A stretch of 64,000 nt of DNA, from NCBI GenBank assembly GCA_030549905.1, contig JAUQQK010000002.1, positions 1-64,000 on the forward strand, in the 5' to 3' direction. Under the pieces are notes generated by a model. That model ran no database searches, was not told the origin of the DNA, and saw nothing but the letters and a program-made list of their open reading frames with translations. This document shows positions 10,879-15,719 of this stretch, piece after piece. This stretch comes from Aquificota bacterium (GTDB lineage: Bacteria > Aquificota > Aquificia > Aquificales > Aquificaceae). Numbering within the stretch: the stretch's first letter is position 1; each line of letters begins with the position of its first letter. The position numbers were made by a program, and so were the translations under genes.

Positions 10879-11190
10879 ATGAAACTGCTCGTGCTCGGCG
10901 GACACGACAGGCTTAAGTCTAAGGTAAGAGAGTTTTCAAAACGTTACAGAGTGGAGATAAAGTTCATAAATCAGGAAACTCAGCAAAATATAGATAGTGC
11001 TTTAGCCTGTGCGGATTGGGTCATAGTTTTTACAAGTCTTGTGGGTCATAACATGGTAAAGCTGGCTAAAGATTATGCTAAGGAAAGATGCATATTCTGT
11101 AGGTCTCATGGTGTATGTGCTCTAGAGAGGGAGATAAAGAGGCTTTTGGGCTATGAGAAAAATCATATTGACAACAGGTCTCAATTTTGA
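10879..11190 (+). CDS. DUF2325 family protein
   Basis: 103 aa. It matches the DUF2325 pattern: MKLLVLGGHDRLKSKVREF, a central DWVIVFTSLVGHNMVKLAKDYA, and RCIFCRSHGVCALEREI near the end. These are small Rossmann-like proteins of unknown function, often found as single genes. A strong GGAGG site precedes the ATG. Its stop codon lies inside the promoter assigned to the next gene, so the following operon is probably independently transcribed. Confidence 0.78.
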   Translation: MKLLVLGGHDRLKSKVREFSKRYRVEIKFINQETQQNIDSALACADWVIVFTSLVGHNMVKLAKDYAKERCIFCRSHGVCALEREIKRLLGYEKNHIDNRSQF

Positions 11191-11196
11191 TAAACT
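11168..11196 (+). promoter_or_regulatory. Promoter of the porin-cytochrome-flavoprotein operon
   Basis: Perfect -35 TTGACA at 11168-11173, a 17-bp spacer, and -10 TAAACT at 11191-11196 (4 of 6 matches). It overlaps the end of the DUF2325 gene and would give a leader of about 35 nt with an AGGAGGT ribosome site before the porin ATG. Confidence 0.6.
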
Positions 11197-11237
11197 AATT
11201 GCAATGAAATCTCAATATTTGTATTAGGAGGTAAGAA

Positions 11238-12620
11238 ATGAGGAAGGCACTTCTATTTACAGCACTTTTTTCAACGGTAGCTTTTGCTCAGAACCAAGAA
11301 GAGCGCATAAGACAGCTTGAGGAACAGATAAGAGCTTTACAGCAGGAGCTACAGAAGATAAAAGAAGAGCAGAAGAAAGCCCAAGAAGTCCAGAAGGAAG
11401 TGGAAGCTGTCAAAGAAGAGGTCAGGAAGCTTAGGCTTGATATTGCCATACCAATGGTTGAGATTAAGTCTTATTCTGGACTTGGACCTTCCGCTTCAAA
11501 GGTACATTTCAATCCAAAGGGTGTTTCCATAGGTGGATATGGTGAGCTAACCTTTACACGCAACAGCAATTTCAATAGAAACAGTCCGGGCAATCAACAG
11601 GGTGGAGCCAAAAACATTGCGGACACGCAGAGAATTATCATTTATCTTGGCTATGCCTTCAGCGAAAAGCTCAAGTTTAATTCAGAGTTGGAGTTAGAGC
11701 ATGCTTCCACTTCAAGCGCTCATGGTACGGGTGGAGGATACTTCAAGGCTGAGCTTGCCTACCTTGACTATCAGTTTAGACCTGAGTTTGGATTAAGGGG
11801 AGGGCTTCTACTTATGCCATTAGGCATAATCAACGAAGTGCATGAGCCACCCACCTTTCCAACTGCAGAAAGACCCTTCCTTGAGAGGAGACTTATACCA
11901 ACCACCTGGGAGGAGATGGGCATAGGAGCTTACGGAAGTGTGGGCATGGTGGATTACAGATTTTACATAACCAACGGACTTATGTTAAAAGGTAACGGAA
12001 CCTACAGTGCTACCGCACCCCTGCAAAGTGTAAAGCAAAGAGGTGCAAGGGCTACCTTTGATGAGATAGGTTTTACTGGTAGGGTGGATATAAACCTTCC
12101 TATGAATATAAAAGTAGGTGGTTCCTTCTGGACGGGTGGAGTGCAGAGTAAGGGAGGTGGCGATTCAGCTCTTGGTCTTGGAAGAGGTACAAAGGTGGGC
12201 TCTCTGACTATGCTTTCACCCCATATCTGGTGGCAACACATGGGCTTTGATATAAGGCTTGTAGGTGTATACACAGACATAAAGGATGCAAAAAGGATAG
12301 GACAGGACCTAAACGTGAATACCTTCCCTTCAAAACAACAAGGCTACTATCTACAGGTGGCTTATGACCTCTTTAGGCTCTTCGGTCCTGAAAATCAGGA
12401 GCTTTATGTATTTGGCATGTATGAGGATATAGACACCCACAAGGAAGTACCTTCTGGTTTTACAAAGCCTGCAGGACACAAACTAAAGGTTTATAACTTT
12501 GGCATATCTTACAAACCTCACCCCCTTGTAGCTATAAAGGCGGACTACGCAAGGCTAAACTATAGCAAGCCTGCAAGGGACGAAGATGAATACAGGCTCA
12601 CCCTTAGCTTTATGTTCTGA
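11238..12620 (+). CDS. Outer-membrane porin with N-terminal coiled coil
   Basis: 460 aa. A signal peptide (MRKALLFTALFSTVAFAQ) is followed by a coiled coil over about residues 22-75 (EERIRQLEEQIRALQQELQ and onward). From about residue 95 there is a beta-barrel rich in alternating aromatic and polar strands, and the last strand ends in LSFMF, the usual terminal Phe. The architecture resembles phosphate-selective porin-like (OprO/OprP) proteins whose coiled coil reaches into the periplasm. It is first in a group with a diheme cytochrome, an FMN-binding protein and a membrane protein. Substrate and partners are unknown. Confidence 0.85.
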   Translation: MRKALLFTALFSTVAFAQNQEERIRQLEEQIRALQQELQKIKEEQKKAQEVQKEVEAVKEEVRKLRLDIAIPMVEIKSYSGLGPSASKVHFNPKGVSIGGYGELTFTRNSNFNRNSPGNQQGGAKNIADTQRIIIYLGYAFSEKLKFNSELELEHASTSSAHGTGGGYFKAELAYLDYQFRPEFGLRGGLLLMPLGIINEVHEPPTFPTAERPFLERRLIPTTWEEMGIGAYGSVGMVDYRFYITNGLMLKGNGTYSATAPLQSVKQRGARATFDEIGFTGRVDINLPMNIKVGGSFWTGGVQSKGGGDSALGLGRGTKVGSLTMLSPHIWWQHMGFDIRLVGVYTDIKDAKRIGQDLNVNTFPSKQQGYYLQVAYDLFRLFGPENQELYVFGMYEDIDTHKEVPSGFTKPAGHKLKVYNFGISYKPHPLVAIKADYARLNYSKPARDEDEYRLTLSFMF

Positions 12621-12638
12621 GGCTCTTCTTCATGTTTG

Positions 12639-12656
12639 CCCTCCCTTCGGGGAGGG
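12639..12656 (+). terminator. Stable UUCG hairpin after the porin gene
   Basis: A perfect 7-bp stem CCCTCCC/GGGAGGG closed by a TTCG tetraloop begins 18 nt after the porin stop. It lacks a following T-run, so it may be an mRNA-stabilising or attenuating hairpin that lowers expression of the downstream cytochrome rather than a full terminator. Confidence 0.6.
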
Positions 12657-12684
12657 GGTATTAAACCTGCTCTAGAGAACTGTC

Positions 12685-14226
12685 ATGGAAAAGTTTTTAC
12701 TTTATATGCTTGTAGTAAGGTATGGAAAAGCTGTAGCAAATCCTTGTTATGTGTGCCACACGCAGGCAAATACTCCGTATGCTAATGAAACTACAGATTT
12801 GGAGCTTACCTTTAAATACTCTTTCCCTGAAGAAATAAAGAAAAGAGGAAATCCATGGCTTAATGCCATCAGACCAGACCTCACCCTCGCAAATATACCC
12901 ATGCCTTCAGATTCAGAAATTCAAGCGTGGATAAGACAGGACAACTGGACGCCTGCTTACATTTCAAGAGGGCAAGGAGCCTACAAATACTTTCCAGACG
13001 TGCCACCCTTATATGTGTATTCTAACCAAGGCTACAAACTAAACCCTCAAGTGGTGGATGAGGAAGGTTTTATACATGACCCACAGACAGGTCAGCTTAC
13101 AGGCTGGAGAGTTTTCAAGTGGAAACCTTTTCCCGGCTTTTTCCCTACCAATGGCAGGATAGACTCCACTCTCATAAGACTTCCTGAGGAATTTAGAACC
13201 GATATAAATACTTACAAGAAAAACCTTGCCATTGTAGAATGCGCAGTAAAAGGCATAAAACCCGGAGAAATCTGTAAGAACACAGAGGTAGGAGATTTTG
13301 TGATGCCAGAGTATTATGAAGGTGGTGCAAAGCATGTGCGAGTTGTTGCCTATCAGTATCCACCCGGTACCGAATTTGCTCACCCTATATACTACCTTGA
13401 CCCTCAAAATACTTACTCTTTCAAATCTTTAAGACTAAAAGAGATGAGATATATGAAGAAAATTTCTTACGCGGACTTGTCGCAGGGTGGCGAAGAGGAG
13501 GAAGAAGAGGATAAATTCTTCTGGGACAAGGGTTTAGTTTTTAACCTTAGCAAAAACTGGCTTATGGTAGGTTTTATTGAAAACAAAGATGGAAGCCTTA
13601 GACCTCAAAGCGCGGAAGAGATGAAGTTCTGTATCTCTTGTCATGGTGGTATAGGTGGGTCGGTAGATGCTACTTTTACTTACTGGCGCAAAGCGCCGGG
13701 TGCGGGTGGTTGGATGGAGCAGGATTATAACCTTACTGTTAAAAACATAAAGGACTGGAATTATGCAAGCTACGAAGGACAGATAGGTGAAAGTCTAAAA
13801 GGGCTTATAAACCTTGTAAGAGGAGAATATCAGCTCTACTTTGCTATGACAGATGGAGGAGACCACTTTAGAAGCAATCAAGAAGTGCGCTCAAGAATAA
13901 GCAAAGACCCAAACAAAATATCTTTCGTACTTTCACCAGAGTACAACATACTCACAAATCCAAGTCTTATTAATTACCTTGACGAGGAAGGATACATAAA
14001 ACCCGACCTGTTTTTACCTTCTGCGGAGCGAGCCTACGCTATAGATAAGCAGTATTTTAGAGTTGTGCAGGCTCAGGCTTTTAGGTTTGGAAGAGACGTG
14101 TTTGACAGACCCTTCGGTGTTTCTTCTGGTGGAAACTCTTTAGAAAACTTAAAGGACGTAGAAGATACAGGCATAAGCCTTTCAAAACTCTGGCTTATAA
14201 TAAAAACTTTTCTATTTTTAGATTAA
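12685..14226 (+). CDS. Diheme c-type cytochrome, unrecognised family
   Basis: 513 aa with two CxxCH heme sites: CYVCH near residue 22 and CISCH near residue 315. The N-terminus is a short, atypical export signal (MEKFLLYMLVVRYGKAVA, then NP). The rest is a large domain with many aromatic residues (WLNAIRPDLT, GWRVFKWKPFPGFFPTNGR) and a run of acidic residues about 270-278 before the second heme. I do not recognise the family. No good Shine-Dalgarno precedes the ATG, and a stop lies just upstream in frame. It is most likely periplasmic or on the outer membrane, beside a porin and an FMN-binding protein, suggesting electron transfer. Confidence 0.8.
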   Translation: MEKFLLYMLVVRYGKAVANPCYVCHTQANTPYANETTDLELTFKYSFPEEIKKRGNPWLNAIRPDLTLANIPMPSDSEIQAWIRQDNWTPAYISRGQGAYKYFPDVPPLYVYSNQGYKLNPQVVDEEGFIHDPQTGQLTGWRVFKWKPFPGFFPTNGRIDSTLIRLPEEFRTDINTYKKNLAIVECAVKGIKPGEICKNTEVGDFVMPEYYEGGAKHVRVVAYQYPPGTEFAHPIYYLDPQNTYSFKSLRLKEMRYMKKISYADLSQGGEEEEEEDKFFWDKGLVFNLSKNWLMVGFIENKDGSLRPQSAEEMKFCISCHGGIGGSVDATFTYWRKAPGAGGWMEQDYNLTVKNIKDWNYASYEGQIGESLKGLINLVRGEYQLYFAMTDGGDHFRSNQEVRSRISKDPNKISFVLSPEYNILTNPSLINYLDEEGYIKPDLFLPSAERAYAIDKQYFRVVQAQAFRFGRDVFDRPFGVSSGGNSLENLKDVEDTGISLSKLWLIIKTFLFLD

Positions 14227-14238
14227 AAGAGGTAAGCC

Positions 14239-14775
14239 ATGTGTAGAAAATGTTTTATCTTGCTTTTAATTTTGATAACCCTCAGTCTGGCAGGTTCAAG
14301 GGAGTTTAAAAAACCAGAACAAGCTCTCGCTCAAATATATCCTGGCTCTCAAATAGAGGTAAAAAACATAGCCCTTACAAAAGAACAGATAGAACAGGTG
14401 GAAAAGCTCTCAGGAGTAAAACTCCGCGACAGATTGGTATCGTGGTATATCGTCAAAAAGGCAGGACAGATAGTAGCCTACGGCTATGTAGATGTGCATA
14501 CGGTAAGAACACATTCGGAAGTAGTGCTATACACAATAAAGCCAAACGGTTCCATTGATGTGATAGAAGTGCTCGCCTTTAATGAACCTTTGGAATATAT
14601 GCCAGAGGAAGAGTGGCTTAGGCTTTTTGCAGGGAAAAGCCTTTCAAAAGACTCTATACGTCTAAAAAGAGATATACCAAACATTACAGGTGCTACCCTT
14701 ACTGCAAGAGCAATAACAGACAACACAAGGAAAGTTTTAGCCTTGTGGCAGGTGCTTTTTGGAGGCTCTAAATGA
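14239..14775 (+). CDS. Exported FMN-binding domain protein (RnfG/NosR-like)
   Basis: 178 aa. A signal peptide (MCRKCFILLLILITLSLAG) is followed by a compact FMN-binding domain. The motif NITGATLTARAI near residues 149-160 matches the [S/T]GAT site at which ApbE attaches FMN covalently to threonine in RnfG, NqrC and NosR-type proteins. The segment RTHSEVVLYTIKPNGSI is the family core. It follows the diheme cytochrome by 12 bp and overlaps the next membrane gene by 4 nt (ATGA). Inferred role: periplasmic one-electron flavin carrier between a membrane donor and the cytochrome. Confidence 0.82.
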   Translation: MCRKCFILLLILITLSLAGSREFKKPEQALAQIYPGSQIEVKNIALTKEQIEQVEKLSGVKLRDRLVSWYIVKKAGQIVAYGYVDVHTVRTHSEVVLYTIKPNGSIDVIEVLAFNEPLEYMPEEEWLRLFAGKSLSKDSIRLKRDIPNITGATLTARAITDNTRKVLALWQVLFGGSK

Positions 14776-15719
14776 GGTTTTTCATATCCTCTGACATAAA
14801 AAAGAACAGAACCCTTTATTTTGCTGTGCTTTTCTTTATGGTTTTTTCTTTTCTCTTTTGGCTTTCTTCATGGCTTCATTTTTATGCAAAATACACCTTC
14901 TCTTACGAAGGTTTAGTCAAATACTTTTTCACAGACCCTGAATATCCTGAACGCATATCCATAAGCCAGCTTTCGGAAGACTTGCATGTAAGCCTCTTTC
15001 TTCACAGTTTTATACTTCTTGTGCTTTTTTCCCTTTTCAATCTCGTAGCCAAGGACAGCAAATTAAAAAGTTTTTCGGTAGTGCTGGTCTTTTCGTTAGC
15101 TACATTCTACATATTGTCTGACCTTCTTATTTATTTTCTAAATCAACCTGCCTTTGTATGGTTAAAATTTGCTTCCTTTATAATCTACCAAACATCTTTC
15201 ATAATAGTTTGGTTATATACCTTATTCAAAATTCTAAACGCCAAGCCTCCTTCCAACAGTTCTTTACGTCTTCTTGTGTTTTTGTTTTCTATATTTTCAC
15301 TTATCTTTTTTCTTTCAAACTTTTTAAATTTTTATTCAAAGATGGGTTTGAACCCAGAGGGTATAAGAAATTATTATCTTGGAAACCCACAGCTTTTTAT
15401 CAAGAAAAAGACTTTTGAAGGTGTATTTAAAGTTTTTTATCCACATCTTTTAGCCATGTCTATATATTGTCTTACCCTTGCTCATCTTTTGCCCTTTGCG
15501 GGCCTAAGACAGAAAACAGGCTTTTACCTGGGCATACTGCTCTTTACTTTCTCGTCTATTGACAACCTTTCAAGTATTTTAATCTTATATACTTCTTCTG
15601 GAATGGCTGAGCTTAAACTTCTCAGTTTTATCTGCTTTCATCTGATAGCCTTTTACTGCTGTCTTGTGCTTCTGAGGGCTTCTGTAAAGAAGGGAGAGTT
15701 TCCAGCCCTGTATGTATAG
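14772..15719 (+). CDS. Polytopic membrane protein with internal duplication
   Basis: 315 aa with about eight predicted transmembrane helices arranged as two similar halves. Each half has an aromatic-rich helix, an extracytoplasmic loop with the pattern FYxK...EG...Y(F/Y)...P, then a helix with a conserved His: WLHFYAKYTFSYEGLVKYFF and HSFILLV in the first half, FLNFYSKMGLNPEGIRNYYL and PHLLAMSIYCLTLAH in the second. Histidines in helices could bind heme b, but this is inference. ATGA overlap with the FMN-binding gene indicates coupled synthesis. Candidate quinol-side membrane anchor of the module; family not recognised. Confidence 0.75.
   Translation: MRFFISSDIKKNRTLYFAVLFFMVFSFLFWLSSWLHFYAKYTFSYEGLVKYFFTDPEYPERISISQLSEDLHVSLFLHSFILLVLFSLFNLVAKDSKLKSFSVVLVFSLATFYILSDLLIYFLNQPAFVWLKFASFIIYQTSFIIVWLYTLFKILNAKPPSNSSLRLLVFLFSIFSLIFFLSNFLNFYSKMGLNPEGIRNYYLGNPQLFIKKKTFEGVFKVFYPHLLAMSIYCLTLAHLLPFAGLRQKTGFYLGILLFTFSSIDNLSSILILYTSSGMAELKLLSFICFHLIAFYCCLVLLRASVKKGEFPALYV

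Follow-up and report, generated by a model that had tools for sequence, protein, structure and literature searches.

A flavin-linked gene set in a heat-loving Aquificaceae bacterium that probably carries electrons from the inner membrane towards an outer-membrane pore

The stretch of DNA analysed here (the window) comprises 64,000 nucleotides, positions 1 to 64,000 of contig JAUQQK010000002.1 (C7 in our labelling) in assembly GCA_030549905.1, the 1.65 Mb genome of a member of the Aquificaceae (G000). It carries four genes, encoding a putative outer-membrane porin (POR), a diheme cytochrome c (CYT), a periplasmic flavoprotein (FMN) and a membrane protein (MEM). A preliminary description, made from the sequence alone, had proposed that these tightly spaced genes form an envelope electron-transfer module. 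The open reading frames (ORFs) confirm that all four lie on the + strand, with spacing of 64 nt, then 12 nt, then a 4-nt overlap, and a split leuS is located just 3′ of the module, in keeping with an Aquificaceae genome. The features of the locus are:

11238–12620, + strand: POR, outer-membrane porin, 460 aa (ORF, signal peptide, N-terminal coiled coil, conserved family)
12639–12656, + strand: hairpin after POR, CCCUCCC UUCG GGGAGGG (RNA fold)
12685–14226, + strand: CYT, diheme cytochrome c, 513 aa (CxxCH at 12745–12759 and 13630–13644)
14239–14775, + strand: FMN, periplasmic FMN_bind flavoprotein, 178 aa (PF04205; TGAT at 14686–14697)
14772–15719, + strand: MEM, eight-helix membrane protein, 315 aa (structure model, internal duplication, invariant His)
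10879–11190, + strand: DUF2325 protein directly upstream of POR (PF10087, E=1.7e-20)
11168–11196, + strand: TG-extended sigma-70-like promoter match (TTGACA-17-TAAACT, 10/12, consensus scan)

The proposed module stands in part. A flavinylated core is supported by conservation, by co-occurrence with the flavin transferase gene ApbE, by ApbE-FMN fusions and by the replacement of MEM with known flavin-linked membrane cytochromes, but CYT is only an accessory. The reading we favour, at somewhat better than even odds, is that POR, FMN and MEM, with ApbE encoded elsewhere, form a flavin-based extracytosolic electron-transfer system that is probably reductive, and that CYT was acquired and truncated in this genome.

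FMN matches the FMN_bind family over the Pfam cut-off (PF04205, E=4.6e-5), and its profile matches the RnfG chain 9eri_G (E=2e-7). It is the sole FMN_bind match in the genome, which also has a single ApbE (C4:77976), away from the module. The exported protein with a TGAT flavinylation motif that the preliminary description had recognised is confirmed, and the motif is kept across FMN alignments (A2, A10). In many loci of other genomes ApbE adjoins the module, where it constitutes the neighbour family F4, and in several loci of the phylum containing Nitrospirae bacterium RIFCSPHIGHO2_01_FULL_66_17 (hereafter the Nitrospirae-group phylum) an ApbE-FMN_bind fusion protein lies next to MEM. Flavinylation of FMN is well supported by the presence of a single ApbE and a single FMN_bind protein in this genome and by the occurrence of such fusions beside MEM elsewhere; the protein would be expected to carry covalent FMN. 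An exported FMN_bind protein with an [S/T]GA[S/T] motif and an ApbE in the genome, as in ApbE-flavinylated systems, are both present; the described transmembrane electron-transfer protein of such systems is not, as MEM matches no Pfam model.

MEM has eight predicted long helices in a reasonably confident structure model (pLDDT 82), and its two halves are homologous, with an hhalign probability of 99.5 % in global mode, a setting that favours full-length alignment. One conserved His per half had been noted previously; His72 (14985) and His225 (15444) are invariant in 36 sequences, as is a third residue, His238 (15483). In the Hydrogenothermaceae the halves are two adjacent genes. A lone MEM half of ~165 aa follows POR-FMN in Gammaproteobacteria and in the Nitrospirae-group phylum. 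The shared motif consists of a helix with a His, usually as HxH, and a second His 13 residues on. Both motif histidines are present in the half-size protein, and the first half of the fused form keeps only His72. Comparisons with the PDB by sequence gave nothing meaningful, homology with PepSY was not detectable, and Foldseek returned no significant fold, the best match being heme A synthase (E=0.11, TM 0.21). Given its invariant histidines, MEM is likely to be a b-type cytochrome. For FezC, the text of PMC11334425 proposes a bis-His heme at a dimer interface, and MEM would most naturally be read in the same way, with its heme at the interface of a dimer or pseudo-dimer. Half-size MEM would form a homodimer and ligate heme with the two histidines that lie 13 residues from each other on a single helix; in the fused protein of Aquificota, at least the His72/His225 heme pair would remain.

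POR has a signal peptide, a coiled coil at approximately residues 20–70 and a C-terminal Phe, which agrees with the earlier description of an outer-membrane barrel with a periplasmic coiled coil, the barrel fold being a prediction. POR occurs in 67 of 136 Aquificota genomes, 85 of 369 Gammaproteobacteria and 100 of 296 genomes of the Nitrospirae-group phylum, many of the last on a more distant branch. In the same 136 Aquificota, MEM was found in 69, ApbE in 71 and CYT in 24. MEM and ApbE occur jointly in 64 genomes, MEM alone in 5, ApbE alone in 7 and neither in 60 (Fisher 3e-24), and the co-occurrence of POR, MEM and ApbE gave Fisher p values of about 1e-21 to 1e-24; these values overstate independence, as the sampled genomes are kin and shared ancestry is uncorrected. 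All CYT-bearing genomes carry MEM and all but one carry POR. A CYT search of 61 relatives found the gene in 15.

Gene order is also conserved. In the neighbourhoods that were fetched, POR-CYT-FMN-MEM recurs in several genera despite differing flanks, and many Aquificota keep the order POR-FMN-MEM at differing sites in the genome. The pieces are also present in genera g3 and g6 but are spread out, with, for example, ApbE beside POR and FMN-MEM elsewhere. The possibility that the genes scatter in relatives, raised in the preliminary description as a test of the module, was mostly not realised. Because CYT is found in only 24 of the 136 genomes, as compared with 69 for MEM, 71 for ApbE and 67 for POR, we take POR, FMN, MEM and ApbE to be the core and CYT to be an addition; judged by these distributions, the four genes of the window are not a single ancestral unit. 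MEM was not found on plasmids. A Candidatus Manganitrophus plasmid (L120) carries a POR homologue with no FMN or MEM nearby and a heavy-metal P-type ATPase in the same stretch, and a secreted protein of ~350 aa with OprB-like similarity is located near FMN-MEM-ApbE in two loci (L031:3983-5041, L102:9568-10629).

The inner-membrane component can be exchanged. POR and FMN were together in 21 of 21 gammaproteobacterial loci, a non-random sample made up of the top-ranking POR matches plus a few picked from the rest. The accompanying membrane gene was PepSY_TM in 12, MEM in 4 and ApbE with a four-transmembrane-helix (4TM) protein in 2, with none recognised in the remaining 3. The 4TM protein of the two ApbE loci is related to a 4TM protein of Ideonella, the copy in the latter matching DUF4405 weakly (E=0.0067). 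MEM itself is present in 4 of 369 gammaproteobacterial genomes, always adjoining POR-FMN. In two loci (L159, L160) CYT sits between POR and FMN with PepSY behind, so that the slot order of the window, POR-CYT-FMN followed by a membrane protein, recurs in a second phylum, where the membrane protein is another one. Small Cys-rich proteins, two of them weakly similar to DUF6686, are encoded just upstream of POR in some Gammaproteobacteria (L167, L173, L164).

PepSY and DUF4405 are treated as flavin-linked membrane cytochromes in the texts of PMC11334425 and PMC8238504. Since they take the same slot, MEM is probably a third kind of flavin-linked membrane cytochrome beside them. A broader formulation, which we put forward tentatively and at rather less than an even chance, is that MEM defines a new flavin-coupled membrane cytochrome class, which can take the form of a four-helix homodimer, of two separate genes or of a fused pseudo-dimer, and that MEM powers a modular envelope reductase. 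In this reductase an inner-membrane part (MEM, PepSY or DUF4405-like) and an outer-membrane diheme protein (P460-like CYT or CCP/MauG) would swap around a fixed porin-flavoprotein pair. Porins and Aquificota are unmentioned in the main texts of eLife 2021 (PMC8238504) and mSystems 2024 (PMC11334425), and a literature search for a porin with ApbE, or for a PepSY-FMN-porin operon, found neither in the literature covered.

The history of CYT in this genome differs from that of the core. A lipoprotein signal is apparent at the start of nearly all of 13 aligned CYT relatives, and a conserved segment with a Cys precedes the first heme in 13 of 13. The window copy is ~48 N-terminal residues short, with no N-terminal lipobox and no PEPNIPLECYTDTG segment. 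The UUCG hairpin after POR that had been noted previously is present, CYT homology beginning from about codon 10 (~12712) downstream of it. A hairpin lies at the equivalent post-POR position in five congeners. Congeners have POR-hairpin-FMN without CYT, in G004 and G007 at the same site before leuS. As a candidate classical terminator the hairpin was rejected; there is no T run after the stem, and it is absent from the terminator scan output. The sequence preceding CYT, when sought elsewhere in the genome, matched only itself.

Trees built by a quick method (SH-aLRT support) separate POR sequences with CYT from those without, with two label changes, one of which is the window. The window POR lies inside the no-CYT clade (99), the window MEM clusters with sequences of its own genus (98), and the sister of the window CYT is the G079 sequence, from genus g7 (95). 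POR and CYT usually move together, and in G048 the two group with g7 and FMN and MEM stay with genus g16; the window is the exception. Insertion with loss of the 5′ end would explain the retained hairpin, the absence of the lipobox and PEPNIPLECYTDTG segment, and the tree mismatch, and CYT looks like an accessory gene that was laterally inserted and 5′-truncated here. It would have been acquired from another Aquificaceae lineage and placed between the POR hairpin and FMN, with loss of the lipoprotein start. Ancestral CYT with repeated loss is a less simple account, and an assembly fault is conceivable. A codon comparison with the nearest relative gave dN of about 0.14 with dS saturated; the low dN relative to saturated dS implies past or present constraint on the gene and a transfer that was not recent.

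It is possible, if on balance doubtful, that CYT is decaying or unexported here and that only POR-FMN-MEM works, an account that is compatible with the flavin-based system favoured above. The missing lipobox and ~48 residues, including the conserved Cys, are consistent with it, as are the weak n-region (charge −1) and short h-region of the CYT start, the pairing with a non-partner POR and the fact that congeners manage without CYT. The 513-codon frame is nonetheless intact and free of stops, dN is low against saturated dS, and the new N-terminus could still serve as a short signal peptide. The exported diheme cytochrome of the preliminary description consequently keeps its two CxxCH motifs (residues 21–25 and 316–320), but export of the window copy is doubtful.

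CYT had also been assigned to no recognised family. P460 proved to be the most frequent Pfam match of the CYT family, which reaches Verrucomicrobia, Latescibacterota and Gammaproteobacteria; it was found in 13 of 15 diverse members (best E=1.4e-4), but the matches are weak, lie below the 27-bit cut-off where shown and are concentrated around the second CxxCH. Distant homology of the second-heme region to P460 is likely. The structure model of CYT is poor (pLDDT 59); P460 and cytochrome c′-beta chains are among its Foldseek matches, none of which is significant, and sequence comparison with the PDB gave nothing meaningful. Neither CYT nor MEM was found to belong to a family with another proven function. 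Outside Aquificota, CYT relatives often follow a PhoX alkaline phosphatase gene (L045, L047–L049, L055, L122; by Pfam or record annotation for some, by resemblance for the rest) in Verrucomicrobia, Salinisphaera and Pseudoalteromonas, with a phosphoesterase in Hydrocarboniphaga and ahead of the relative in L046. A phosphorus link was considered and dropped, as no phosphatase was seen with the Aquificota clusters. Two short CYT-like pieces at G080:C1:199041-199440 are an apparent remnant of a second copy.

These similarities bear on an unlikely alternative, reductive detoxification, in which the diheme outer-membrane protein would be a terminal reductase that receives electrons from MEM and FMN and acts on a small molecule (H2O2, NO or hydroxylamine). 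Besides the P460 and c′-beta matches, it draws on the diheme CCP/MauG cytochrome that precedes POR-FMN in Ideonella and Hydrocarboniphaga (L121 and L157, lipoprotein-like in the latter; a CCP-like BLAST match in L158 is on the opposite strand and was left out of the counts). The low scores and narrow extent of the P460 matches, the poor CYT model and the lack of a cytochrome in most loci argue against it.

Still less probable is a porin-cytochrome conduit, POR and CYT serving as an outer-membrane wire to outside solids or soluble acceptors, as the preliminary description had suggested. POR and CYT are adjacent and were inherited as a pair in G048, and CYT is an apparent lipoprotein in most relatives; however, POR mostly occurs without CYT, and the window POR is itself of the no-CYT type. 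MtrB-type barrels are far larger than this 460-aa coiled-coil porin, and porin-cytochrome conduits have multiheme cytochromes (about 8 or more hemes), as compared with two CxxCH sites ~295 residues apart in CYT. A heme-packed conduit is not supported, since an Mtr- or Omc-type system would need more than two hemes and a porin of 460 aa.

The direction of electron flow is not fixed by the sequences, and Aquificota are mostly chemolithotrophs. Inward flow, with an outside or periplasmic donor oxidised and the quinone pool fed, is nevertheless the least probable of these alternatives, given that the MEM slot is elsewhere filled by PepSY, relatives of which are linked to iron reduction in the text of PMC8238504, and that FeoB and ferritin neighbours suggest reduction.

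In the flavin-based system that we favour, MEM would take electrons, probably from quinol, and deliver them, by a path across or along the inner membrane, to the FMN cofactor, which ApbE would attach to Thr153 of the periplasmic protein. The flavoprotein would then reduce something entering via POR, perhaps ferric iron, or alternatively pass electrons on to a diheme lipoprotein of the outer membrane wherever such a protein exists, whether CYT (Aquificota and some Gammaproteobacteria) or a CCP/MauG protein (others). We favour a reductive system with iron as the leading substrate candidate, because the FMN_bind and PepSY settings described in the text of PMC8238504 are reductive and often iron-related and because FeoB and ferritin genes occur as neighbours; peroxide, NO and outside acceptors are also possible. 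FeoB is near the module in 5 of 69 loci in three phyla (L021, L028, L177, L202, L211), as compared with 0.5–1 expected if genomes have one or two FeoB (p 2e-4 to 4e-3); since FeoB was picked after looking, the association is only a lead. Ferritin-like genes are near the module in four loci (L091, L093, L169, L205). In two Aquificota families, metal uptake genes of the ZnuA/ABC-3 type are found within a few genes of FMN-MEM (L096, L103, L106).

Several observations weigh against this interpretation. The case for heme in MEM comes from invariant histidines only, and the first half has no partner for His238; MEM has neither detectable PepSY homology nor a significant Foldseek fold. PepSY dominates in Gammaproteobacteria, where MEM is rare. 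The iron link is post hoc and depends on an assumed FeoB copy number, and no iron gene was seen beside the module in the window. Finally, purifying selection on the window CYT is strong, so that the gene may have stayed functional despite the insertion or truncation.

With respect to flanking features, the DUF2325 gene turns up next to POR or CYT in five of the loci fetched, which span several genera (the window, L024, L042, L091, L094), an association only. The start at 11168 in the preliminary description corresponds to the −35 box of the sigma-70-like match; such matches are no commoner in the real sequence than in shuffled sequence, and the promoter match is weak.

Taken together, these data would add to flavinylated electron transfer an outer-membrane porin and a widely distributed membrane partner that has no Pfam model. 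One POR-FMN pair carries three membrane proteins without detectable relation (MEM, PepSY and DUF4405-like), so that swapping them offers a way to test what MEM does. The porin and cytochrome appear to move jointly from lineage to lineage above a vertically inherited inner-membrane core, and roughly half of the Aquificota sampled gain a predicted periplasmic electron route that goes unmentioned in the main texts of PMC8238504 and PMC11334425.

Comparison with known systems places the module as follows. It resembles MtrCAB/Omc conduits in having an outer-membrane barrel adjoining a c-type cytochrome, but has two hemes, a small porin and an optional cytochrome. CYT shares with cytochrome P460/c′-beta a weak profile match around the second CxxCH, but is diheme and its family much longer (about 500–700 aa); CCP/MauG proteins hold the cytochrome position beside POR-FMN in Ideonella and Hydrocarboniphaga, but CYT does not match the CCP_MauG Pfam model. 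Like RnfG/NqrC, the window FMN has an FMN_bind domain and the [S/T]GA[S/T] motif, but it is paired with POR and has no adjoining Rnf or Nqr partner. Although MEM has no detectable PepSY homology and no Pfam family, the module is like PepSY-like/DUF4405 systems in combining ApbE, an FMN_bind substrate and one inner-membrane protein, and the POR-FMN pair is itself found with PepSY_TM or a DUF4405-like protein in Gammaproteobacteria.

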